Positions 10,638 through 33,884 are shown, counted from the first letter of the stretch. The stretch is 62,912 bases of DNA from a bacterium (GCA_024275095.1 JAJRZV010000117.1:1-62912), one strand, 5' to 3'. The notes: a model not told the origin generated them from the sequence alone. Numbers and translations are program-made.

Positions 10638-11501
10638 ATGCCATCTGAAATCACCAAGTCTGAAAACCAGGCGTTAGCCCGGTTCCTCAAAGAAATAGAA
10701 AAAATTCCTGTTCTCTCAAGGGAGGAAGAGTACCGCCTGGCAAAAAAGTATAAAGAAGAGGGGGATCTCGAGGCTGCGAAGAAGCTCATCATTTCAAATT
10801 TGCGGTTCGTGGTAAAAATAGCCCTGGAGTACCGGCACTATCCTTTCAATCTCATGGACCTCATCCAGGAGGGTAACGTCGGCTTGATGATGGCAGTGAA
10901 GAAGTTTGATCCGGACAAGGGCTACAGGCTCATTTCCTACGCGGTGTGGTGGATTCGTGCATTCATTCATTCCTACATCATGAACAACTGGTCGCTGGTG
11001 AAAATTGGAACCACACAGGCACAGAAGAAACTTTTCGGACACATGCGCGAGCTTGGCGCTATCAGTAACAGTGAAGACGTGAAGGCGCTGGCGGATAAAC
11101 TGGATGTACCGGAAAAGGATGTGGTGGAAATGGAAATGCGTCTCGCCCACCGCGATTATTCCATAGATCAGTCTATAAATGCCGACGAAGACGATATTAC
11201 ATTTGCCGATGTGATTGAGGATAAAGGGCCGTCGCAAGAGGATATTGTCATCAGCCAGGAGGAGCATGCACTTCTCAAGACCGGCATCAAGCGGGCCATA
11301 GATGTTCTTGATGAAAGGGAGCGCAAAATTATCGAGAGGCGGTTTCTCAGCGAGCGACCTGCATCGCTCAGGCAGCTGGGCAAGGAGATGAACCTTTCCC
11401 GCGAACGGGTCCGCCAGATAGAAAAGCAGGCCCTTTCCAAAATTGCGAAGGAACTTCAAAAGGCTAAGGTGCCGCTACCCTTAGGGCCCGGCAGTTCCTG
11501 A
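10638..11501 (+). CDS. rpoH: RNA polymerase sigma-32 factor RpoH
   Basis: The heat-shock sigma factor. At 287 residues it has the usual RpoH length and order: region 1.2 (ALARFLKEIEKIPVLS), the region 2 core (NLRFVVKIALEY, MDLIQEGNVGLMMAVKKFDPDKG), region 2.4 (YAVWWIRAFIHSYIMNNWSLVKIGTT) and region 4.2 (SLRQLGKEMNLSRERVRQIEKQAL). The NWSLVKIGTTQAQKKLF segment is the RpoH box that separates it from RpoD and RpoS. The gene is monocistronic. Its 3' end overlaps the convergent flavoprotein gene by 21 bp, leaving no room for a separate terminator. The leader has a 9-bp inverted repeat at 10583-10605. Confidence 0.93.
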   Translation: MPSEITKSENQALARFLKEIEKIPVLSREEEYRLAKKYKEEGDLEAAKKLIISNLRFVVKIALEYRHYPFNLMDLIQEGNVGLMMAVKKFDPDKGYRLISYAVWWIRAFIHSYIMNNWSLVKIGTTQAQKKLFGHMRELGAISNSEDVKALADKLDVPEKDVVEMEMRLAHRDYSIDQSINADEDDITFADVIEDKGPSQEDIVISQEEHALLKTGIKRAIDVLDERERKIIERRFLSERPASLRQLGKEMNLSRERVRQIEKQALSKIAKELQKAKVPLPLGPGSS

Positions 11502-12920
11502 CTTTCCGGGATTCAAGATTGCGTTAGGATCGAGGAGCTCCTTGAGCTTATAGAGGAGTTCTAAAAATCCCGGATCAATACGATTTTTTATGCGTGCCCA
11601 GGCCCACGGTGGCATCTTGTAAGGTACAAAACCCAGCTCCAGCACCAGCTCGAGGAGTTCTTCATTGACCTTCCTGGCGCGCGTTTTTTCGTCTTCATTC
11701 TTTTTGTCGAATACGGTTATGAACCGCAGGACGCCGTAGTGGCCGCCCTTCATGGGCCGGGTTACAACCGTGGGTGCTATCCCGTGAGCAAGCATGATTT
11801 CGGAGCCGCGCCGTACGCCGTTTTCCCAGAGCGACGACGGCCCGTACGTGCCGATCCAGGTGAGCCCGCCTTTTTCAAGAAGAAACTCGAGCGTCATGGG
11901 AAAATCAGCCAGTGATGCGAAGTCCGGTACTGCTTTTACAATTTCGTCCACGTCCACCGGCCCTTCTACTTCCACTCCGGATTTGCGAAAATCCTTGAGC
12001 ACGCGGTTGTAAATTTTCAGGCGCTCGTTGAGATCGCCCTTTGAAAATCCGCCGATGTCCGCATATAAAAAGAATTCCGGTTCCGAAGGGTCCCTTACCA
12101 GGGGATTGTCCACGCCGAAAAGCATCTTGCCTGCGGGCCATGTGAGCCCCCCAAGATCAAAGAAGATAAAGCGACGTGCGAGAGATCTCAGTATTTGAAA
12201 TCCTTCTTCCACGGAGTATGTAAAAGCGAACAATCTTTTCCTGGCTGTCGGTTCCGGCCAGAGCTGTACGGAAAGCTTTGTGACAATGCCGGTGGTGCCC
12301 TGCCAGTTGAGGAACAGCCCCGTGAGGTCCGGGAGTGGGGCTCTGGCAAACCAGTACTTGCTCAGGGCCGCTGCGCCTGTACGTACCACCTTTCCCGAAG
12401 GCAGCATTACTTCCAGTCCACCGATCCATTCGCCCATTGAACCGTGCATGAATGAAAGATTACCAAGACCGTCTAAAAGACAATTGGCCATTATTGATAC
12501 GTTGGGAGGAGCTAACGGGTAGGCGATGGTGAGGTCGGGCGCGTGTTGCTGGAGATATTCTTTGAGCTGGCCGAAGGTGACTCCAGGTTCAAGCACCACA
12601 TACATTTCCGAACGGTTAAGCTCCACGATACGGTTCATGCCTTTGAGGTCAAGCACGATTCCACCGGGTGCTGGCAGGGCCAGCCCTCCCACATTGGTAC
12701 CTGCGACGATAGGGGTGACAGGGACCCTGTGCTGATTTGCGGTTTCCAGTACTGTCTTCACGTGCTCTGCAGAATGTGCATAAACCACGGCAGCTGGTTT
12801 AGATGGTTCGGCTTCCGTGTAATCGGTGGCGTATTGCTCAAGCGTGGAGTCTTCCGTGCTTACCAGATGTTCACCCAGTTTCTTTTTAAGGGTGGAAAGC
12901 CAGGTTTTTCTTGCAGACAT
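11481..12920 (-). CDS. FAD-binding oxidase of the GlcD/VAO family
   Basis: A 479-residue flavoprotein with an N-terminal PCMH FAD domain and a C-terminal FAD-oxidase cap ending in LLDPNAILNPGKSG. The FAD loop here (PVTPIVAGTNVGG) is much closer to the family pattern than those of the paralogues at 27.7 and 29.4 kb. It would oxidise a 2-hydroxyacid or related substrate. It is the last gene of the acyl-CoA synthetase-SCP2-oxidase operon; its ATG lies one base after the SCP2 stop, with the binding site GAGGGG inside that gene's end. Such grouping suggests a lipid-related substrate, but this is inference. It overlaps convergent rpoH by 21 bp. Confidence 0.82.
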   Translation of the reverse strand: MSARKTWLSTLKKKLGEHLVSTEDSTLEQYATDYTEAEPSKPAAVVYAHSAEHVKTVLETANQHRVPVTPIVAGTNVGGLALPAPGGIVLDLKGMNRIVELNRSEMYVVLEPGVTFGQLKEYLQQHAPDLTIAYPLAPPNVSIMANCLLDGLGNLSFMHGSMGEWIGGLEVMLPSGKVVRTGAAALSKYWFARAPLPDLTGLFLNWQGTTGIVTKLSVQLWPEPTARKRLFAFTYSVEEGFQILRSLARRFIFFDLGGLTWPAGKMLFGVDNPLVRDPSEPEFFLYADIGGFSKGDLNERLKIYNRVLKDFRKSGVEVEGPVDVDEIVKAVPDFASLADFPMTLEFLLEKGGLTWIGTYGPSSLWENGVRRGSEIMLAHGIAPTVVTRPMKGGHYGVLRFITVFDKKNEDEKTRARKVNEELLELVLELGFVPYKMPPWAWARIKNRIDPGFLELLYKLKELLDPNAILNPGKSGTAGP

Positions 12921-13285: not shown

Positions 13286-15127
13286 TTACCTGACGACTTC
13301 GATGACATCTTCACACCGATCCTCATAAATATCGTCAAAAAGTTGCTTGTATTTGCTTTCGATGGCCTTGCGCTTGATCTTGAGCGTGGGCGTGATTTCC
13401 CCGGACTCGATGGTGAAGTCGTGGTCGAGTATAACAAACCGCCTGACCCATTCAACCCGTGCAAGCTTTTCGTTAGCGCGAGCGACAAGATTCTTGATGT
13501 GCTCCCTCAGTTCCGGATCCTTCACTGCATCTGCCATGCCGGGATACTCCTTGCCGGTGGTTGAGAAGAATTTTTTCGCCTCTTCCTCGTCCAGGGTTAC
13601 AAGGGCCGTTATGTAGGGACGCCTGTCGCCGTGCACGTGTACCTGGCTGATAATGGGATCCAGGCTCTTGATGGTATTTTCAATATTTGCGGGGGCGATA
13701 TTTTTACCGCCGGCGGTAACAATAATATGTTTTTTACGGTCGGTGATGCGTAAAAATCCATCTTCGTCGATTTCACCGATATCACCAGTGTGGAGCCAGC
13801 CTTCCTCGTCAATGACTTCCTTCGTTGCTTCGGGCTTGTTCCAGTAACCCTTGAACACCGTAGGTCCTCTTACCAGCACCTCGCCATCATCAGCAATTTT
13901 GCACTCAAGCACCTCTATCGGTTTACCAACGGTCCCGAACTTGTACTCGTCCAGGGTGTTGGCGTGTGTCACCACGGTGGCTTCCGTTAATCCGTATACT
14001 TCAAGGATAAGCAAACCCACGGCATGGAAAAATTCTAAAAGTTCTACTGATATGGGTGCTGCACCGGATATGAAGAAACGCACGCGACCACCGAAAGCCC
14101 TGCGTATTTTGCGAAAGACCAGAAAATCAGCAATCGCGTTTTTAATTTTCAGGCCGAGGGGGATGGGCTTCCTTTCGCGTACAAGTGCGGCGTACTCCTT
14201 GCCGACCCCGATGGCCCAGTTAAACAGCTTTCTCACAGCAGGGGGCTTTTTTTTGAGTTCGCTTTGAATGGCGCTGTAGGCCTTTTCAAATATCCGGGGA
14301 ACGCTGCCGAATATGGTCGGCTTTACATCCTGTATGTCTTCGAGCACCGTTTTGATACTTCTTGCATATGCCGTTCCGACCCCTCCATACATGCGTCCAA
14401 AGAATCCCACCACGTGTTCGGCTCCATGGGCCATGGGCAGAAAAGAAACAGTGATGTCATCTTCGTATAGCGGTATTTGATCATGCCAGCAGGACAGGAG
14501 TGAAACAATATTGTGATTTGTAATCATTGCACCCTTGGGCGGTCCGGTGGTCCCTGAAGTGTAAAGGATGATTGCTACATCATCGGGAGTGACTTTCCTC
14601 CATCGCTCCTCGAACGCTTTATCAAGTTCAGAGTGTGATCCTTCTTTTTCAATAAATTCTTCAAGAGTGCAAACACCTTCTCCAGATGCTGTGCCTTCCC
14701 ATACGATGATTTTTTCAAGAGCGGGAGTGTTGTTACGGATTTTGAGGATCTTGGCAAGTTGTTCTGCATTTTCTACAAAGATCATACGTGCACCGCTGTC
14801 ATTTAGAATATATTCAATTTGTTCAGGTGAAAGTGTTTGGTAGACTCCTACTGAAATTCCACCTGCCATGATAACGGCCAGGTCGGAAATCACCCATTCA
14901 GGCCGTGTTTCTCCGAGGATACAAACCCTGTCACCTTTTTGAAGTCCTGCACCGATGAGCGCCCTGGAGAGAGCCTTTACTTCTTCGTAGTAATCCCTCC
15001 ACGTTCGTCTTACCCAGCCACCGTCGGGCCGGTACATATAGGCAAGCATCTCCGGCGTATGTTCCACCCTCCATATCAGCAGCTCAGGAATGGTTTTTAC
15101 ATCGCCTTTTTCAGGAAACAAAGCCAT
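13286..15127 (-). CDS. Long-chain acyl-CoA synthetase (AMP-forming)
   Basis: This enzyme activates fatty acids to acyl-CoA through an acyl-AMP intermediate. The ATG at 15127 has a GGGGG-rich site; an ATG 66 nt upstream (15193) is possible but adds residues outside the domain. About 613 residues, the usual size of FadD15-type enzymes. Motifs in order: ILYTSGTTGPPKGA (P-loop), FLPMAHGAEHV, GAAPISVELLEFF, VYGLTEATVVTH, GWLHTGDIGEIDEDGFLRITDRKKHIIVTAGGKNIAP and the C-terminal Lys region. It is the first gene of a three-gene operon with SCP2 and an FAD oxidase. The divergent gene is nikR. Confidence 0.9.
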   Translation of the reverse strand: MALFPEKGDVKTIPELLIWRVEHTPEMLAYMYRPDGGWVRRTWRDYYEEVKALSRALIGAGLQKGDRVCILGETRPEWVISDLAVIMAGGISVGVYQTLSPEQIEYILNDSGARMIFVENAEQLAKILKIRNNTPALEKIIVWEGTASGEGVCTLEEFIEKEGSHSELDKAFEERWRKVTPDDVAIILYTSGTTGPPKGAMITNHNIVSLLSCWHDQIPLYEDDITVSFLPMAHGAEHVVGFFGRMYGGVGTAYARSIKTVLEDIQDVKPTIFGSVPRIFEKAYSAIQSELKKKPPAVRKLFNWAIGVGKEYAALVRERKPIPLGLKIKNAIADFLVFRKIRRAFGGRVRFFISGAAPISVELLEFFHAVGLLILEVYGLTEATVVTHANTLDEYKFGTVGKPIEVLECKIADDGEVLVRGPTVFKGYWNKPEATKEVIDEEGWLHTGDIGEIDEDGFLRITDRKKHIIVTAGGKNIAPANIENTIKSLDPIISQVHVHGDRRPYITALVTLDEEEAKKFFSTTGKEYPGMADAVKDPELREHIKNLVARANEKLARVEWVRRFVILDHDFTIESGEITPTLKIKRKAIESKYKQLFDDIYEDRCEDVIEVVR

Positions 15128-15255
15128 TTTTACAAACCCCCACTGAATGGTCTTCAGGTGATGATATTCAACCTGAGAGACGGGTTCAAGCAAAAGCAGG
15201 TTTTCCTTCTTTGAGGTTATTTCGCTTGCGTTGAGATGCTCGTGATTGATAAAAA

Positions 15256-25819: not shown

Positions 25820-27421
25820 CTAATATTTGGGATCTCCTTCTTCCAGTACATCCTCAGGTAACATGTTTTTGTATTTTTCGATGTTTTCATTGAAGGCTTT
25901 GATCAGCTGTTTTCTTGTGTGGTTGAATGCCTGCTTGTTTTTCCAGGTTTGTTCCGGAAAGAGAATTTTCTGGGGTACGCCGGGACATCTTTCAGGTACA
26001 AGAAATTTGAAGTTTTTATCCTGTTTAAATGGCGCGTTGTCAAGTTCTCCGTCGAGTATTGCTTTGATGATTTGTCTTGTGTGCTTAATGGAAAAACGCC
26101 TGCCTGTCCCGTATTTTCCCCCGGTAAGCCCGGTGTTCACAAGGTAAACGTTGACGTTGTGTTTTACGATTTTTTTCCTGAGCATTTCTGCATATACGAC
26201 GGGAGAGAGGATCATAAACGGCGCTCCAAAGCACGCAGAAAAGACAGCCCTAGGTTCTTTCACTCCTACTTCTGTTCCTGCAACTTTTGCGGTATAGCCG
26301 GATACGAAGTGATACATGGCCTGTGCAGGTGTGAGCTTTGCCACGGGTGGAAGTACTCCAAATGCATCGTATGTAAGAAAGATGATGTTTTTTGGATGTG
26401 GCCCCGTGCCTTCCCTGACGATGCGGGGAAGGTGGGTTATCGGGTAAGATGCACGGGTGTTTTCTGTGAGTGAGTTGTCGTCGAGGTTAACTCGCCGTGA
26501 CTGTATGTCTATGGCCACATTTTCCAGTATGGTGCCAAATTTTCTGGTACACTCGTAAATCTCTGGTTCACTTTCTTTCGAAAGTCGTATTACCTTCGCG
26601 TAACAGCCGCCTTCAAGATTGAATATTCCTTCAGAAGACCAGCCGTGTTCGTCGTCACCGATCAAATACCTTTCGGGATCTGTCGAAAGTGTTGTTTTGC
26701 CCGTACCTGAGAGACCGAAGAAAATCGCCACGTCCCCTTTATTTCCCATATTGGCGGCACAGTGCATGGTCAGCACATTCTGCGACGGCAGGATATAATT
26801 CATCAAAGTGAATACCGCTTTTTTAATCTCACCAGCATAAGAGGTACCGCCTATTATGATGAGTTTTTTTTCCAGGTTGAGAATTACGAATGTTTCGGAA
26901 TTGGTGCCGTCTACTTCGGGAATTGCATGAAAACCCGGGGCATGGATCACGGTTATATCGGGAGTAAAGTTTTTTAGTTTCGCCGGGTTTAATTCTCGAA
27001 TAAGCATGTTCCGTGCAAACAGGCTGTGCCAGGCCTTTTCCGTGATTACACGAACTTTTCTCCGGTGCTTTGCGCTTGCGCCTACATAGCATTCCTGAAC
27101 ATACACTTCCCTCGACTGGAAGTAAGAAACCATTCGTCTGTAAAGGTGTTCAAAGTTTTTTTTCTCGATGGGCTGATTGTCCGGGCCCCACCATATTTTC
27201 TTACTGCTGGGGCCGCTTTTCACAATGAATCTATCCCGGGGCGATCTACCGGTGTGATGTCCTGTTCTCACGACGAGAGGACCGAGATGGGCGAGGATGC
27301 CTTCTCTTCTTTGAAGCGCCATTTCGTAAAGGGCAGGCGTGGGCAGGTGCCAGTAAATTCTTTCCAGGTTTTTCAGGCCGTGCTCTTCAAGTCCCTGCTT
27401 CTCGTTTTTTATTACTTTCAA
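25820..27421 (-). CDS. pckA: Phosphoenolpyruvate carboxykinase (ATP)
   Basis: Makes PEP from oxaloacetate with ATP, for gluconeogenesis. About 533 residues; R-x-G-x-x-TGHHTGRSPRDRF is the oxaloacetate-binding region, GLSGTGKTTLS the P-loop, LIGDDEHGW the metal site, and NTGLTGGKYGTGRRFSIKHTR the Arg loop. The start is ambiguous. The ATG at 27457 has no ribosome binding site, whereas a TTG at 27421 is preceded by an excellent AAGGGGGT, so I prefer the TTG. Divergent from the flavoprotein operon. Confidence 0.93.
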   Translation of the reverse strand: MKVIKNEKQGLEEHGLKNLERIYWHLPTPALYEMALQRREGILAHLGPLVVRTGHHTGRSPRDRFIVKSGPSSKKIWWGPDNQPIEKKNFEHLYRRMVSYFQSREVYVQECYVGASAKHRRKVRVITEKAWHSLFARNMLIRELNPAKLKNFTPDITVIHAPGFHAIPEVDGTNSETFVILNLEKKLIIIGGTSYAGEIKKAVFTLMNYILPSQNVLTMHCAANMGNKGDVAIFFGLSGTGKTTLSTDPERYLIGDDEHGWSSEGIFNLEGGCYAKVIRLSKESEPEIYECTRKFGTILENVAIDIQSRRVNLDDNSLTENTRASYPITHLPRIVREGTGPHPKNIIFLTYDAFGVLPPVAKLTPAQAMYHFVSGYTAKVAGTEVGVKEPRAVFSACFGAPFMILSPVVYAEMLRKKIVKHNVNVYLVNTGLTGGKYGTGRRFSIKHTRQIIKAILDGELDNAPFKQDKNFKFLVPERCPGVPQKILFPEQTWKNKQAFNHTRKQLIKAFNENIEKYKNMLPEDVLEEGDPKY

Positions 27422-27457
27422 CTTTACCCCCTTCGCGCGTTGTGAATCTGAATCCAT

Positions 27458-27718: not shown

Positions 27719-29371
27719 ATGAACGCAAAAATTAAAGTTGATAAAAAATTGCAAGATATTGATATTACCGAAAGGGGATGGTTTTATCCCTGGTGTACAG
27801 AGGAAAATCTCAATGGTGCGTTAAAGGAAATCAAAGAGGTAGTCGGAGAAGAATGGGCAACTAATGACCTTGCTATTAGAAATAACTACTCAAGAGACCA
27901 GAGCACGGTAAAACGGGTTGTCCCCCACCTTGTTGTTTTACCTGCATCCACTGGAGAAGTCGCCGGTGTTGTAAAGATTGCATACAAGAGGCGCATCCCC
28001 GTTGTTGTGGGCTCATGCAGAATCAACCAGTCAGGCGAGTGCATTCCCAGGCGTGGTGGAATACTGCTGGATCTCGTAAGGATGGACCAGATCCTGGAAA
28101 TTGATGAAGAGGGTATGTATGCCACTGTTCAGCCGTTCGTGAAATGGCAGGACCTCCAGATAGAAGGAGAGAAATTCGGGTACTGGGAAGGCCGGGCATT
28201 ATATGGATGCAAACCAGAGGCTCCCGCATCGGCCTCGGTACTGGGTAATACGCTTGGATACGGTCTTTCTTTTCACAACATTTGGTATGGTTCAGGTATT
28301 AACCGCGTGGTTAGCATGACATGTGTGCTTGGTGATGGCACGGTGGTGAAGCTGGGTTCCGAAGCTATGCCCGGTGCGGGAAAAATCGGCGGTGCTTATG
28401 GGCCGGGGATGATGCTTGCACAGATGCACTGCATGATGCGGGGGAGGCTCGGAATTGTGACCGAACTGACAGTAGAACTATTCCCATGGTACAAATACCG
28501 CCGTTACTACACCTTTCTTTCAACTGAGAAGAACTTTTTCAGGCATATTGAGTGGTGGTACAAAATCATGCGGCTTGACCTTTTCTCCATGTTCATTGCC
28601 CAAGCCGAGCCTGCCACGTGCATCGCCCAGATGGCCACTCCAAATTTCAAAGAGGCAGAGGAATTTTTGGAAATTATGGAGAATATAGGTCTTTTTCCCA
28701 CGTGCGTGTGGCTTGGCATTGTCAGCGCGGAAACGCAGAAGGAGCTTGATGCCAAGTGCCGCATGATTGAAAAGGTTACAGAGGAAACAAAGGGCGCCCC
28801 TCTTCTGGTCAACATGCAGGTGCTGCTTGAGGCTTCGGGCCTCGAGACCTCAAAGGTTCTCGGCAGATTCGGGGGAATAGGCCAGTACCTGCGCAAAACA
28901 AGGAATACCATAAACTACATGAGACAGAAAGAAACCGAGTGGTACTCTGCCTCCTGGATTCAATTGAGTAATGCACCAAGATATTACGAGACCCTGTTAA
29001 GAGCGGCGCGCCAGCAATTGGGACAGAGAGACCCGTGGCTGGAAAAGAAAAACAGGTCGCATTTCAGAGACGACGACACCGAATTCTATATGTGTGCGTA
29101 TTATGGAGGCAGGGTGATTATCTTTGAGAGAGACTACTGCCAGGCATTCAGCAATCCATACGAATTTTACAAGTCCAGGGGTTTTGTGGAGCAGGCAGCC
29201 TATGAACAGTATAAAAGTGGAATGACAGGAGGATGGAGATACGCCAAGCCCGGTTCTGTATGGGAACGTTTGGAGAGAAAAATTAAAAAGGTTTTTGACC
29301 CGAGGGATATTTTGAACCCCGATTACGACGGATTCATTGAAGAGATGATATACGGCGGGAAAGCCTATTGA
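27719..29371 (+). CDS. FAD-binding oxidoreductase, VAO/PCMH family (large paralogue)
   Basis: A 550-residue flavoprotein. The ATG at 27719 is preferred over the GTG two codons upstream. The N-terminal PCMH domain (about 65-260) includes VVPHLVVLPASTGEVAGVVKIA and the FAD region NTLGYGLSFHNIWYG, with MTCVLGDGTVVKLGSEA and MRGRLGIVTELTVELFPW; the C-terminal cap ends FDPRDILNPDYDG. The usual Gly-rich pyrophosphate loop is replaced by VVVGSCRINQSGECIPR. It is closer to cresol/vanillyl-alcohol oxidases than to GlcD. First of four tightly spaced genes; the next flavoprotein starts 7 nt after its stop. It probably passes electrons to the Fe-S protein. Substrate unknown. Confidence 0.8.
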   Translation: MNAKIKVDKKLQDIDITERGWFYPWCTEENLNGALKEIKEVVGEEWATNDLAIRNNYSRDQSTVKRVVPHLVVLPASTGEVAGVVKIAYKRRIPVVVGSCRINQSGECIPRRGGILLDLVRMDQILEIDEEGMYATVQPFVKWQDLQIEGEKFGYWEGRALYGCKPEAPASASVLGNTLGYGLSFHNIWYGSGINRVVSMTCVLGDGTVVKLGSEAMPGAGKIGGAYGPGMMLAQMHCMMRGRLGIVTELTVELFPWYKYRRYYTFLSTEKNFFRHIEWWYKIMRLDLFSMFIAQAEPATCIAQMATPNFKEAEEFLEIMENIGLFPTCVWLGIVSAETQKELDAKCRMIEKVTEETKGAPLLVNMQVLLEASGLETSKVLGRFGGIGQYLRKTRNTINYMRQKETEWYSASWIQLSNAPRYYETLLRAARQQLGQRDPWLEKKNRSHFRDDDTEFYMCAYYGGRVIIFERDYCQAFSNPYEFYKSRGFVEQAAYEQYKSGMTGGWRYAKPGSVWERLERKIKKVFDPRDILNPDYDGFIEEMIYGGKAY

Positions 29372-29378
29372 GGATAAA

Positions 29379-30779
29379 ATGAGCAAGTCCATCACTGAGG
29401 CTCTTGTCCACATTTTGGGGAGAGAAAATGTGCTTACCGGTTCGAGAGAAATTATCTCACGCTATTTTCGCAACAGGGTTAATCGCACTGGCATCATTGC
29501 TGTCACACCGAAAAATGTAAAAGCGGTACAAAGGATTGTTTCTTTTGCAATCAAAACCCGAATCCCCATCTACACCCTTGGAGGGATGTGGTCCCCTGAG
29601 GAAATTGCCTCAAACAAAGGAATTCTCCTTGACCTTTCAAAAATGAATCGAATCTACGAGATAGACCCTGTTAATCTTCATGCGATTATAGGGCCTGGTG
29701 TTACCTTTTCCCAGTTTCAGGAAAAAGTAAAAAAATATGAGCCCCCGGTAAAAATAGCTTTTCCAGTATGTGCAGATTCACCCTTTATTTTATGCAACTA
29801 TATGAACCGTAACATTACGCTTAATGCCCCGACATTACGGGGTAGAACAATTATCGTTTCCAATTATCATGTGGTACTTCCTGACTCAGGAGACATTTTT
29901 AAAAGCGGTTCTCACAGCATATCTGAGCAGGACCACGTTCCTGATTGGCCCGGGACAGGAGGCACGGCCCCTTCTTTAGCATTCTATGGTACTGATGATG
30001 CACTGGGTATCCCTGTTAAAGGTGTAGTATGGCTGTTTCCTGTTCAGGAACACCGCGAAGTTATCCTGTTTCGATTTCCTGACCATGAATCTGTAAATGC
30101 GTTTCTTTTTGAACATTGTCGTGCTGGACGATTTGTCGAAGCGTACGGGGCCAACCAGACCTTTTTATCAGCTCTTCTTGCAAAAAATGAATCCGAAATG
30201 AAAGAGCTGAGAAAAGAAATTCCCGAATGGATTGTTGCAGGTACACTTGAAGGTTCGGAAGAGCTGGTGACTGTAATAAAAGAAATACTGATAACTTCTG
30301 CAAAGAAATTCAACGGGCAAATATTCAGCCATGAACTGCTTTGTTCCACTTTCGATAAGCCATGGTATGTGTGGGATAGAAACAAGTATAAGGGTCACAG
30401 TGAAATAATCAGCTTTTATTGTTTGTTCAGCAGGTTTGAACAGTTGAAGAAGGTTCTTACGGGTGAACTGGAACATCTTGGATATTCAAACAGCGAAGTG
30501 GGGCAGCTTGTGCTGCCTTTAAAACAGGCCCGTTCACTTTATGCTGAATTTGACCTTTACTTCGAAGATAAGGAAGAAGGTAAAAACATTTATATCCGGG
30601 CGTATAAGAAAGTTATTGACGCTGGAGCGTTTGTAGATAGACCCGCTGGGAGCATTGCGGAGTATGTTTATTCTAAAAATCCTGAGATATGGAAATTGCA
30701 GCGGGAAGTAAAGCGACAACTTGATCCTCACAATATTCTCAATCCACATCAATTTATTGCCCGCAGAGGTGGGTCATGA
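29379..30779 (+). CDS. FAD-binding-fold protein, second paralogue with degenerate FAD loop
   Basis: 466 residues, with the same PCMH layout as the preceding gene but weaker motifs. The loop that normally reads Gly-Gly-Gly-Thr is TLGGMWSPEEIAS, and the segment that usually holds the second flavin contacts is diverged (NITLNAPTLRGRTI). The C-terminus keeps QLDPHNILNPHQF. It may bind FAD poorly or not at all and act as a structural partner of the first flavoprotein, or it may be a distinct oxidase; sequence cannot decide. It overlaps the Fe-S gene by 4 bp (ATGA), so the products are likely made in fixed ratio. Confidence 0.72.
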   Translation: MSKSITEALVHILGRENVLTGSREIISRYFRNRVNRTGIIAVTPKNVKAVQRIVSFAIKTRIPIYTLGGMWSPEEIASNKGILLDLSKMNRIYEIDPVNLHAIIGPGVTFSQFQEKVKKYEPPVKIAFPVCADSPFILCNYMNRNITLNAPTLRGRTIIVSNYHVVLPDSGDIFKSGSHSISEQDHVPDWPGTGGTAPSLAFYGTDDALGIPVKGVVWLFPVQEHREVILFRFPDHESVNAFLFEHCRAGRFVEAYGANQTFLSALLAKNESEMKELRKEIPEWIVAGTLEGSEELVTVIKEILITSAKKFNGQIFSHELLCSTFDKPWYVWDRNKYKGHSEIISFYCLFSRFEQLKKVLTGELEHLGYSNSEVGQLVLPLKQARSLYAEFDLYFEDKEEGKNIYIRAYKKVIDAGAFVDRPAGSIAEYVYSKNPEIWKLQREVKRQLDPHNILNPHQFIARRGGS

Positions 30780-32209
30780 GTAAGAATGATTTTCGAAAAG
30801 GACGAGAGGAAAAAGGATATTACAGGTATATGCACGACAGATACATAGAATTGCTTAACTCAGGGGAAAGAGAGGAATATTCTTCTGAACTGGCAGGCCT
30901 CCCGGCTATCCCTGACTTTGAGTTTGCTGATCATCACGATTTTAAAAGCTTCCTGGATTACCATGGTGAAGTTAAAGGGCGCACTATTTACGATTACCGG
31001 AAACAGGCCTATTCGTGTTTAATATGTCGCGTGTGCAATTCCATTACATGTTTCCGCCAGACGAGCGCCAGATACGGACTTGTATGTCCCAGCGGGGACA
31101 GGTTCAGATATGATAACTACTTTGGCCACGGAAAACTCCAGATGATAAGGGGATTCCTGGACGGTGAGCTCTCCCATCCTTACCCTCCAGAAGGTGAACC
31201 TCTCAGGCCTTTGTTTGAACCCACAGAGAGATTTCTGCATGTGGTGTATACATGTACACTATGTGGAGGTTGTGAATCGCTTTGCAAAATTCAAAAATTA
31301 CTTGAGCCAATGCATGCTGCAGTTGCGCTGAGAGAGTATCTTGTTGAGCAGGGAATAGGTCCTCTGCCAGAGCATCGGGTGGTGTTGAAAAACATGGAAA
31401 ATTACGATAACCCATGGGGAGGAGCGCGAAGCGCGCGGACCCGCTGGCTACCGCGTAACAGAAAAGTAAAAGTTCTTGGTAACGGCAGAGAAAGGGCTGA
31501 AGTGCTTTTCTATGTTGGTTGTACCACTGCGTATGTGGGTTTTCTCAAGAAAGTCCCGTTGAGCATCGTGGATATACTTCAAAAAGCAGATGTTGATTTT
31601 GGAATTCTGGGCAACAGCGAAATTTGCTGTGGTTCTACCATGTTGAGACTTGGTGATAGGAGGGGTTTTGAACGTTTCAAAAGCAGAAATATTGAAATGT
31701 TCAATTCCCTGGGAGTAGAGACGATTGTAACAGGATGCGCTGGTTGTACAAGCACATTTAAAGAAGACTATGCGGATGAATTGAATTGTCAAATATACCA
31801 TATTACAGAATTCTTGGAAAAGCTGTTGCAAGAAGGAAAACTGAGAATGAAAAAAGAGGTGCCTTTACGCCTTACTTACCACGATCCCTGTCACCTGGGC
31901 AGATATTGCGGTATTTACGAAGAACCCAGAACGCTTCTTAAGGCAATTCCGGGGGTGAAGCTTGTTGAAATGGAACGCATCAGGGAAGACGCGTATTGCT
32001 GTGGGGCAGGAGGAGGTGTGAGAACCGCATTTCCTGACTTTTCACTGTGGGTGGCACGCAGGCGAATTACTGAAGCCTTAGAAACTACAGGTTGCAATAT
32101 AGTTGTCACTGCCTGCCCGTTCTGCGAACAAAATCTCGCTGACGCGGGTAATTTGGAAGGTGTGAAGGTCATGGACATCAGTGAGATTGTCAGGCTATCG
32201 ATTGAGTAA
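30776..32209 (+). CDS. HdrD/GlcF-like Fe-S protein with two CCG domains
   Basis: A 477-residue electron carrier. Two ferredoxin-type motifs, CLICRVCNSITC followed by GLVCPSG, and CTLCGGCESLC, would hold [4Fe-4S] clusters. Two CCG domains follow: the first with ICCG and GCAGC (about 280-325), the second with DPCHLGRYCG, YCCGAGGG and ACPFC (about 365-460). CCG domains bind non-canonical clusters in heterodisulfide reductase HdrB/D and in GlcF and LutA. There is no membrane segment, so it is soluble or attached through a partner. Its position after two flavoprotein genes suggests a GlcDEF-like complex that passes electrons to a quinone or thiol acceptor. Confidence 0.85.
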   Translation: MSKNDFRKGREEKGYYRYMHDRYIELLNSGEREEYSSELAGLPAIPDFEFADHHDFKSFLDYHGEVKGRTIYDYRKQAYSCLICRVCNSITCFRQTSARYGLVCPSGDRFRYDNYFGHGKLQMIRGFLDGELSHPYPPEGEPLRPLFEPTERFLHVVYTCTLCGGCESLCKIQKLLEPMHAAVALREYLVEQGIGPLPEHRVVLKNMENYDNPWGGARSARTRWLPRNRKVKVLGNGRERAEVLFYVGCTTAYVGFLKKVPLSIVDILQKADVDFGILGNSEICCGSTMLRLGDRRGFERFKSRNIEMFNSLGVETIVTGCAGCTSTFKEDYADELNCQIYHITEFLEKLLQEGKLRMKKEVPLRLTYHDPCHLGRYCGIYEEPRTLLKAIPGVKLVEMERIREDAYCCGAGGGVRTAFPDFSLWVARRRITEALETTGCNIVVTACPFCEQNLADAGNLEGVKVMDISEIVRLSIE

Positions 32210-32215
32210 CCAGGC

Positions 32216-32893
32216 ATGGATGAACGTACGCTCACTGTACTTGTTCGAAAATTAAAACGTGGAAGTGAACATGAAAAAATTTCTGTTCTCTCGTTGATAT
32301 GTGACTCTGGTGATAAGAGAGTTGTTCCAGAACTTCTTGCTGCTCTTAAACGCGAACAGAACACCGCTGTATGCCTGAGGATTATCTGCACTTTGGGCAG
32401 GCTTGGAGACTCACGTGCTGAACCTTCACTGATGGAGATGCTTTCTTCCCCTGACTGGAGAATAAAAGCTCAATGTGCTCAGGCACTTGGAGAGCTAAAA
32501 GCAGTACAAGCCGTAGACCGTCTTGTTACTTTCCTTGGTGATCAAAATGACCTGCTTCATTGGAGTGTATGTGATGCTCTCGGAAGTATTGGAGGTGAAA
32601 AGGCGCTGGGGCATCTTCTCGATACACTTGAACGCGTTCGCAACAACCGCAGGTGCTGGCACATTATATATGCCCTGGGGAAAATAGGTGATGAGAAAGC
32701 ATTTGATAGAATCATCCCGTTTCTTTCTCATCCTGACAGTGTGGTTAGAAGACACGCGGTGCTTGCTTTAAGACAGATGGATTGGAGACGAGCAAGGAAT
32801 TACCTCAAAAAGTGCTTGAAAGATGTGGATGGCGATGTGAGACATTATGCCGACGAGGCCCTCCGGGGTCAGGTCTCAACATTTGACATTTGA
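32216..32893 (+). CDS. HEAT-repeat protein whose C-terminus lies in a mobile repeat
   Basis: 225 residues, almost entirely tandem HEAT (PBS-lyase-like) repeats of about 31 residues, with recurrent patterns such as LGRLGDSRAEPSLMEML, LGELKAVQAVDRLVTFL, LGSIGGEKALGHLLDTL, LGKIGDEKAFDRIIPFL and LRQMDWRRARNYLKKCL. Such arrays scaffold protein-protein contacts. It starts 6 nt after the Fe-S gene. The last eight codons (GQVSTFDI) and the stop come from the interspersed repeat at 32865-32890, so the original C-terminus may be lost or extended. The role, probably assembly or docking of the oxidoreductase, is inferred. Confidence 0.8.
   Translation: MDERTLTVLVRKLKRGSEHEKISVLSLICDSGDKRVVPELLAALKREQNTAVCLRIICTLGRLGDSRAEPSLMEMLSSPDWRIKAQCAQALGELKAVQAVDRLVTFLGDQNDLLHWSVCDALGSIGGEKALGHLLDTLERVRNNRRCWHIIYALGKIGDEKAFDRIIPFLSHPDSVVRRHAVLALRQMDWRRARNYLKKCLKDVDGDVRHYADEALRGQVSTFDI
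32865..32890 (+). repeat. Interspersed repeat, copy 5, inside the HEAT gene
   Basis: Core variant with GGGGTCAGG; the element probably begins at CCCTCCGGGG (32859). It is in frame with the HEAT gene and provides its stop codon. It does not continue into the long tail. Confidence 0.85.
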
Positions 32894-33176: not shown

Positions 33177-33884
33177 TTATGGAAGATATATCTGTTTGCC
33201 CATGCGGTTCCAGTCGATTCGTGTGAAGTACTGAAAGAAGGCTTTGGTCCAGTACCACAGCCATCGAAAAAAGGTGGTAATTGGAGGCGCTGGAGTTGCT
33301 GAAGGATTGTTCCTGACGGACCAGTATATCACGTAGGCTTTGCCTTTAATAAGACCCATTTCTACGAGAGAATATTTGGGGTCATACGTGAGTCCGAGTT
33401 CCAGTGCCCACATGCGACTGTCATTGCTTGAGTCCCTGTTGTCTCCCATAACAAAGTAATATCCATGAGGCACAACGATAGGACCAAATTCGTCCCTGTT
33501 GGGAAGGATGCGGCGGTCTTTATACATACCGTAAAGATCCTTTAAGGGTTTGCCGTTGATGAAGATCATTTTCTCGCGTATTTCTACGGTATCTCCCGGG
33601 AGCCCGATTACACGCTTGATGAAGTTTTTGGACTGATCAAGAGGATAGCGAAATACAATAATATCGCCGCGCCGGGGTTTGTTCCATGTGATTATATACT
33701 TGTTAACGAGAGGTAGTCTTATGCCGTATTCAAATTTCCTTACAAGAATATGATCTCCGATGTGAAGTGTTGGTATCATGGAACCAGATGGTATCTCGTA
33801 AGGCTCCACGATGAATATGCGTATGAGCATGGCAATACCTACGGCGATGAGAATGGTCTGAAACTCACTGAATAGTTTTTTCAA
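33177..33884 (-). CDS. lepB: Signal peptidase I
   Basis: Removes signal peptides at the outer face of the inner membrane. The 235-residue protein has one N-terminal membrane helix (FQTILIAVGIAMLIRIFIVEP), the catalytic Ser in EIPSGSMIPTLHIGDHI and the catalytic Lys in FIKRVIGLPGD, plus the box-E motif YFVMGDNRDSSNDSR. It lacks the second membrane helix of the 324-residue E. coli enzyme, as in many other bacteria. It follows lepA by 10 bp, the conserved lepA-lepB order. Confidence 0.95.
   Translation of the reverse strand: MKKLFSEFQTILIAVGIAMLIRIFIVEPYEIPSGSMIPTLHIGDHILVRKFEYGIRLPLVNKYIITWNKPRRGDIIVFRYPLDQSKNFIKRVIGLPGDTVEIREKMIFINGKPLKDLYGMYKDRRILPNRDEFGPIVVPHGYYFVMGDNRDSSNDSRMWALELGLTYDPKYSLVEMGLIKGKAYVIYWSVRNNPSATPAPPITTFFRWLWYWTKAFFQYFTRIDWNRMGKQIYLP

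Follow-up and report, generated by a model that had tools for sequence, protein, structure and literature searches.

Which reaction could be served by four closely spaced redox genes (A-D, positions 27719-32893) in a bacterial DNA stretch of 62,912 nucleotides (GCA_024275095.1 JAJRZV010000117.1:1-62912; "the window" denotes this whole stretch)? An earlier sequence-only reading had taken A-D for a candidate undescribed redox complex of two flavoproteins of the vanillyl alcohol oxidase (VAO) fold, an iron-sulfur (Fe-S) protein resembling the D subunit of heterodisulfide reductase (Hdr) and a HEAT scaffold. Our analysis indicates that A-B-C is probably a soluble, GlcDEF-like flavin/Fe-S oxidoreductase from a distinct family of trios with the composition FAD/Fe-S/FAD (FAD, flavin adenine dinucleotide), in which A is the catalytic subunit, B is degenerate, C is an Hdr-type electron exit and D is an accessory. 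The genes are co-directional, and the gaps given in that reading (7, -4 and 6 bp) were reproduced when recomputed from the coordinates (Table 1). The assignment of two VAO-fold flavoproteins and a HEAT protein likewise agrees with the Pfam families and with the predicted structures of A and B.

The family assignment is carried by the Fe-S protein C, which contains two CCG domains (Pfam E 1e-34). The two ferredoxin-type motifs and two CCG domains noticed earlier were confirmed, with cluster cysteines at 81/84/87/104 and 160/163/166/170 and two complete CCG sets of five cysteines each (CCG1 C-CC-CAGC, CCG2 C-CC-CC). The spacing of the first cluster is 23-24 residues in the C protein of every trio (signature CxxCxxC-x16/17-CP; 23 in the window), whereas it is 10 residues (CxxCxxC-x3-C) in methanogen HdrD, in the GlcF-like protein of the source genome itself (L016) and in most stand-alone CCG proteins. 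Judged from these proteins, the x16/17 spacing is a clean signature of a putative family distinct from both GlcDEF and canonical HdrD. The N-terminus of C is unusually long, with 80 residues ahead of the first cysteine where the median is 21, and the stretch between its first two clusters is longer by 15 residues.

One alternative is that the locus encodes a common dehydrogenase of glycolate (GlcDEF) or of another D-2-hydroxyacid such as D-lactate. Like GlcDEF, the locus combines two VAO-fold subunits with a CCG Fe-S subunit in what would be a complex without a membrane anchor, GlcD and GlcF are among the family matches, and mammalian D-lactate dehydrogenase is, by a small margin, the top fold match of A. 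However, the window subunits score far below the NCBIfam cut-offs (82.3 bits against 567.9 for GlcD and 46 against 333 for GlcF), C carries the x16 signature where GlcF has x3, and A has neither a Pfam match to FAD-oxidase_C nor a 2-hydroxyacid histidine motif of the G[HD]xxDxNxH type. Moreover, the HEAT gene is extra, and a typical GlcD/GlcF pair already exists elsewhere in the source genome (L016). This explanation is largely refuted by sequence and we consider it very unlikely, and the view that A-D follow a logic related to GlcDEF but form a different family is upheld.

Both flavoproteins match FAD_binding_4 in Pfam (A, E 9e-27; B, E 1e-15). AlphaFold models built from each window protein and its relatives (pLDDT 73 for A and 81 for B) align over nearly their full length (410-480 residues) to VAO-fold enzymes, with Z of 25-33 and a root-mean-square deviation of about 3-4 Å. 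The partners are D-lactate dehydrogenase, vanillyl alcohol and eugenol oxidases, p-cresol methylhydroxylase and LctD, and by Z the matches lie at 28-33 for A (D-lactate dehydrogenase, vanillyl alcohol oxidase and p-cresol methylhydroxylase) and 27-31 for B. For A, D-lactate dehydrogenase, p-cresol methylhydroxylase and eugenol oxidase match about equally well, and because the scores are so close, the fold does not pick a substrate; the label "cresol-oxidase-like" holds for the fold of A and for nothing beyond it. As modelled, A would resemble alkylphenol/alcohol oxidases and 2-hydroxyacid dehydrogenases in fold, without the histidine motif of the latter. The p-cresol methylhydroxylase, vanillyl alcohol and eugenol oxidases share the fold of A and B, but their identity to A and B is about 20%, and they work with a cytochrome c or with no partner at all, where the window has an Hdr-like protein. 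Another VAO-fold flavoprotein, far closer than A to eugenol oxidase and p-cresol methylhydroxylase (E ~1e-31), is encoded at 11481-12920 (-) of the window, and the gene of a FadD11-type acyl-CoA ligase (13286-15193, -) lies within a few hundred bases of it.

The two flavoproteins differ in their FAD motifs. In A, the Gly-rich loop for the FAD diphosphate is partly kept, with 13 residues as in the relatives (GSCRINQSGECIP in A versus YSTGFNHGGLTLP or QSTGLNIAGVCVP); Asn103, Gly106 and an intact GxxGIVTE motif are retained, and C-R replaces the T-G of the relatives. In B, the loop is lost: at 11 residues it is two short, the pattern can no longer be recognised, and the third motif has changed as well. 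Both changes in B are common to all four members of its clade (the window and loci L013, L017 and L018), and because they are shared across this 100/100 clade, the degeneration of B is old and maintained, as expected for a structural partner. The claim that the FAD loop had been lost in both flavoproteins is thus correct for B and not for A, and the greater degeneration of B was borne out, with two motifs lost in the whole clade. We also considered a pseudoenzyme reading for A and B together and ruled it out, since A retains the loop length and the third motif. A different pattern was seen in the trios at L019-L021, L024, L030, L036, L040, L042, L044 and L046, in which the A loop is 1-2 residues shorter and B has an SS-rich loop of 13-17 residues. 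This pattern is the opposite of that in the window clade and suggests that the subunit which carries the flavin may not be the same in all clades. We weighed whether the catalytic role has moved from one flavoprotein to the other in these clades and keep this as a possibility, since the A loops there mostly still contain glycine.

A C alignment was used to scan about 85,000 species genomes, and gene adjacency was then counted over all loci; the trio counts are lower bounds. Beyond the window, the trio is present in at least about 17 loci, part of which belong to the source genome itself: the order B-C-A occurs in at least 14, B-A-C in at least one (contig C120 of the source genome), the A-B-C order of the window in at least one (a Jordarchaeia genome) and a B-C-A-B-C-A tandem in at least one (Desulfobacterium sp. 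TRIP AH-1), and at least 19 further loci carry an A-C pair. The source genome has two further trios (C120 and C132) as well as simpler pairs. The hosts among the matches listed are Lokiarchaeota (Asgard), Jordarchaeia, Hadesarchaea, Actinomycetota, Bacillota, Desulfobacterota and an alphaproteobacterium. The family is widespread, and the microbes that carry it are mostly anaerobes. The window groups with C120 (L013), Syntrophomonadaceae L017 and Geothermincola L018 in the trees of B (100/100) and A (81/81), and with the same loci plus L025 in the tree of C (88/84). Since all three trees place the window with C120, L017 and L018, A, B and C appear to be inherited together, as a unit. The co-occurrence of four families that had been put forward therefore holds for A, B and C, but not for D, which was found at none of the other trio loci examined.

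EtfA/EtfB genes lie directly after or a few kb before the trio in two cases (L046:11160-14652 and L042:2537-12827); this fits a redox role and suggests that the electron transfer flavoprotein is the electron partner of trios in some lineages. Other neighbours were also recorded. The trio paralogue B-A-C on C120 (L013:1779-11186) adjoins a cytochrome b gene and is followed by a 124-aa ferredoxin, a 427-aa protein consisting of only the N-terminal domain of aldehyde:ferredoxin oxidoreductase (AFOR) and then a second HdrD-like gene. A ferredoxin gene paired with an AFOR_N-only gene (438-454 aa) occurs in three genomes (L105:6267-10646, L106:4968-9931 and L107:6034-10520), where it adjoins an opposite-strand fusion gene of a FAD domain and an HdrD-like part (877-910 aa). 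The only AFOR_C-containing gene of the source genome (L111:691-2697, contig C88) is broken by an in-frame TAG, which may reflect a pseudogene, a sequencing error or recoding.

The term "undescribed" proved too strong, because a 2026 paper describes a trio built in the same way (PMC13101534) and hdrD-glcD pairs had been proposed in archaea before that (PMC6474303, PMC6783470); the A-B-C core is a version of a published architecture. In the methanogenic benzene degrader ORM2a, proteins 24-26 of the "Magic" cluster are FAD-binding, Fe-S and FAD-binding proteins encoded by consecutive genes; they are the most abundant proteins of the benzene-degrading culture and a leading candidate for the enzyme of anaerobic benzene attack, and published AlphaFold 3 modelling assembles them into a heterotrimer that resembles GlcDEF, their identity to which does not exceed 23% (PMC13101534). 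As in the window, two FAD_binding_4 genes adjoin one Hdr-like Fe-S gene, a likeness of architecture that is drawn from the description. The archaeal hdrD-glcD complexes, proposed to act on CoM-SH/CoB-SH, also place a FAD dehydrogenase gene beside an HdrD-like gene in uncultured archaea, but they are described as pairs and a second flavoprotein is not stated (PMC6474303, PMC6783470).

The benzene case raises the alternative that the window trio activates an aromatic compound or hydrocarbon, with A or B doing flavin chemistry on an aromatic or hydrophobic substrate as proposed for Magic 24-26. Besides the shared FAD/Fe-S/FAD architecture (PMC13101534), genes for SCP2-like lipid carriers adjoin some trios (L017, E 3e-9; L012, weak), an AFOR gene follows the L017 trio, and A and B match alkylphenol oxidases in fold. 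The SCP2-like neighbours, the AFOR gene and the benzene case are weak hints toward a hydrophobic or aromatic substrate. However, the Magic trio sits among CoA ligase, MaoC and CoA-transferase genes (PMC13101534), and its neighbours (AMP ligase, MaoC, type III CoA transferases and BamQ) are missing around the window genes. Likewise, a search of the genome for a benzoyl-CoA ring-opening hydrolase gave at best 113 bits, short of the cut-off of 464. Magic protein 25 is short of some cluster cysteines that are complete in window C, and the main text mentions no HEAT gene beside the Magic trio, whereas the window has D (PMC13101534). The likeness to Magic stands at the level of description, and we regard an aromatic role for the window trio as unlikely.

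The CCG region of C is homologous to that of mycobacterial EtfD (PDB 9ojn; E 8e-46). EtfD is membrane-bound and its Thr539 and His583 render its capped clusters non-catalytic, whereas the Hdr arrangement is open (PMC13083937). C, which would be soluble with an Hdr-type set, has Cys285 at the position of Thr539 and Gly323 at that of the capping His583; these residues together with the complete 5+5 cysteines make C Hdr-like in its ligands, and like HdrD/HdrB it has five cysteines in each of its two CCG domains and no capping His. On these residues, its clusters look like the catalytic ones of Hdr and not like the non-catalytic set of EtfD. Such open ligand sets would also suit a reverse, thiol-dependent reductase similar to thiol:fumarate reductase, in which electrons taken from two thiols at C would be used by the flavin to reduce an organic substrate. 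TfrB is in fact the best NCBIfam match of C (229 bits), and hdrD-glcD complexes were proposed to oxidise CoM-SH/CoB-SH (PMC6474303). However, the TfrB score is under its cut-off of 385, A is of the VAO type and not of the fumarate reductase flavoprotein type, and there is no known thiol partner for this bacterium, which makes this direction of reaction improbable.

D has six HEAT repeats (Pfam HEAT_2, E 5e-32). A search with the HEAT profile and phmmer found no homologue of D at any of the other trio loci examined, and the absence is limited to these loci; one distant HEAT protein lies in L105, about 3 kb from the FAD-HdrD fusion gene there. A HEAT partner as a part of the whole family, as the sequence-only reading had it, is therefore not supported, and D is either a local addition or a co-transcribed passenger. 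The A-D locus is real and coherent, while its HEAT part has no support beyond position.

In the GlcDEF-like mechanism that we propose, A-B-C would form one complex with one working FAD, held by A, which would accept electrons from an organic substrate or donate electrons to it. B, likewise of the VAO fold, has probably lost its FAD and may serve in assembly, substrate gating or docking. In C, two 4Fe-4S sites would carry the electrons on to paired noncubane clusters of the Hdr type, which would hand them to a soluble acceptor, possibly a disulfide; in reverse, electrons would come from a thiol. D may be a HEAT protein that this lineage has acquired for scaffolding, maturation or docking, and since D and the long N-terminus of C are both peculiar to this locus, our guess is that the one may dock on the other. 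Several points weigh against this proposal. The A-B-C complex is itself a candidate proposed from genes, and D is tied to it by position alone. The A loop has a Gly-to-Arg change and A lies on a long tree branch (1.91), so that FAD binding by A is not certain, and because the identity of A to its homologues is at most 29%, transfer of a substrate from relatives is unsafe. DsrC, as a disulfide partner, is absent from the genome, which leaves a disulfide acceptor without a candidate, and C could simply relay electrons. As a much wider and speculative extension, which we hold to be improbable, the trios would make up a broad, so far unrecognised superfamily of flavin-Hdr oxidoreductases in anaerobic bacteria and archaea. 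At paired noncubane clusters they would link difficult C-H/C-O oxidations, among them benzene attack, with disulfide/thiol chemistry; the flavin would sit in different subunits by clade, and the window HEAT protein would be there specifically to dock on the unusual N-terminus of C. No paper treating the trios as one broad family was found in the open-access literature.

The surroundings name no pathway: A-D stand alone, flanked upstream by PEPCK, transcribed away from them, and downstream by lepB, transcribed towards them (Table 1). As stated earlier, no membrane anchor is encoded: no 19-residue segment averages above 1.5 on the Kyte-Doolittle scale in A, B, C or D (FeoB, also encoded in the window, reaches 2.7), and A-D have no transmembrane-like segment. 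The operon contains no partner gene for HdrE cytochrome b, HdrA or HdrC. Promoter and terminator scans of the locus gave a result no better than shuffles. A foreign origin of the operon was rejected, as its GC content is not unusual; searches with A gave no match in viral contigs and only distant partial matches in plasmids.

Table 1 Genes of the A-D locus and its two flanks in the window.
Feature	Position	Strand	Description
PEPCK, ATP-type	25820-27457	-	Divergent, upstream of A-D; name from reading of the sequence
Gene A	27719-29371	+	550 aa, VAO-fold flavoprotein; likely catalytic FAD subunit
Gene B	29379-30779	+	466 aa, VAO fold, FAD motifs degenerate; probably a structural or regulatory partner
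Gene C	30776-32209	+	477 aa, Fe-S protein; CxxCxxC-x16-CP, CxxCxxCxxxC and two complete Hdr-type CCG domains
Gene D	32216-32893	+	225 aa, HEAT/PBS-lyase-type repeat protein, six repeats; local accessory
lepB	33177-33884	-	Convergent, downstream of A-D; name from reading of the sequence

In conclusion, A-D are of more interest than a routine annotation, both for their tie to the benzene candidate and for Hdr-type clusters that are intact. With such clusters in an organism that is not a methanogen, one may ask which disulfide or thiol is used. The candidate for benzene activation was reported from only a handful of benzene degraders and vent contigs (PMC13101534), and the presence of the trio architecture across Asgard archaea, Hadesarchaea, Actinomycetota, Bacillota and others means that its chemistry is probably not specific to benzene. 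In addition, these diverse homologues may be expressed more easily than those of a slow enrichment culture.

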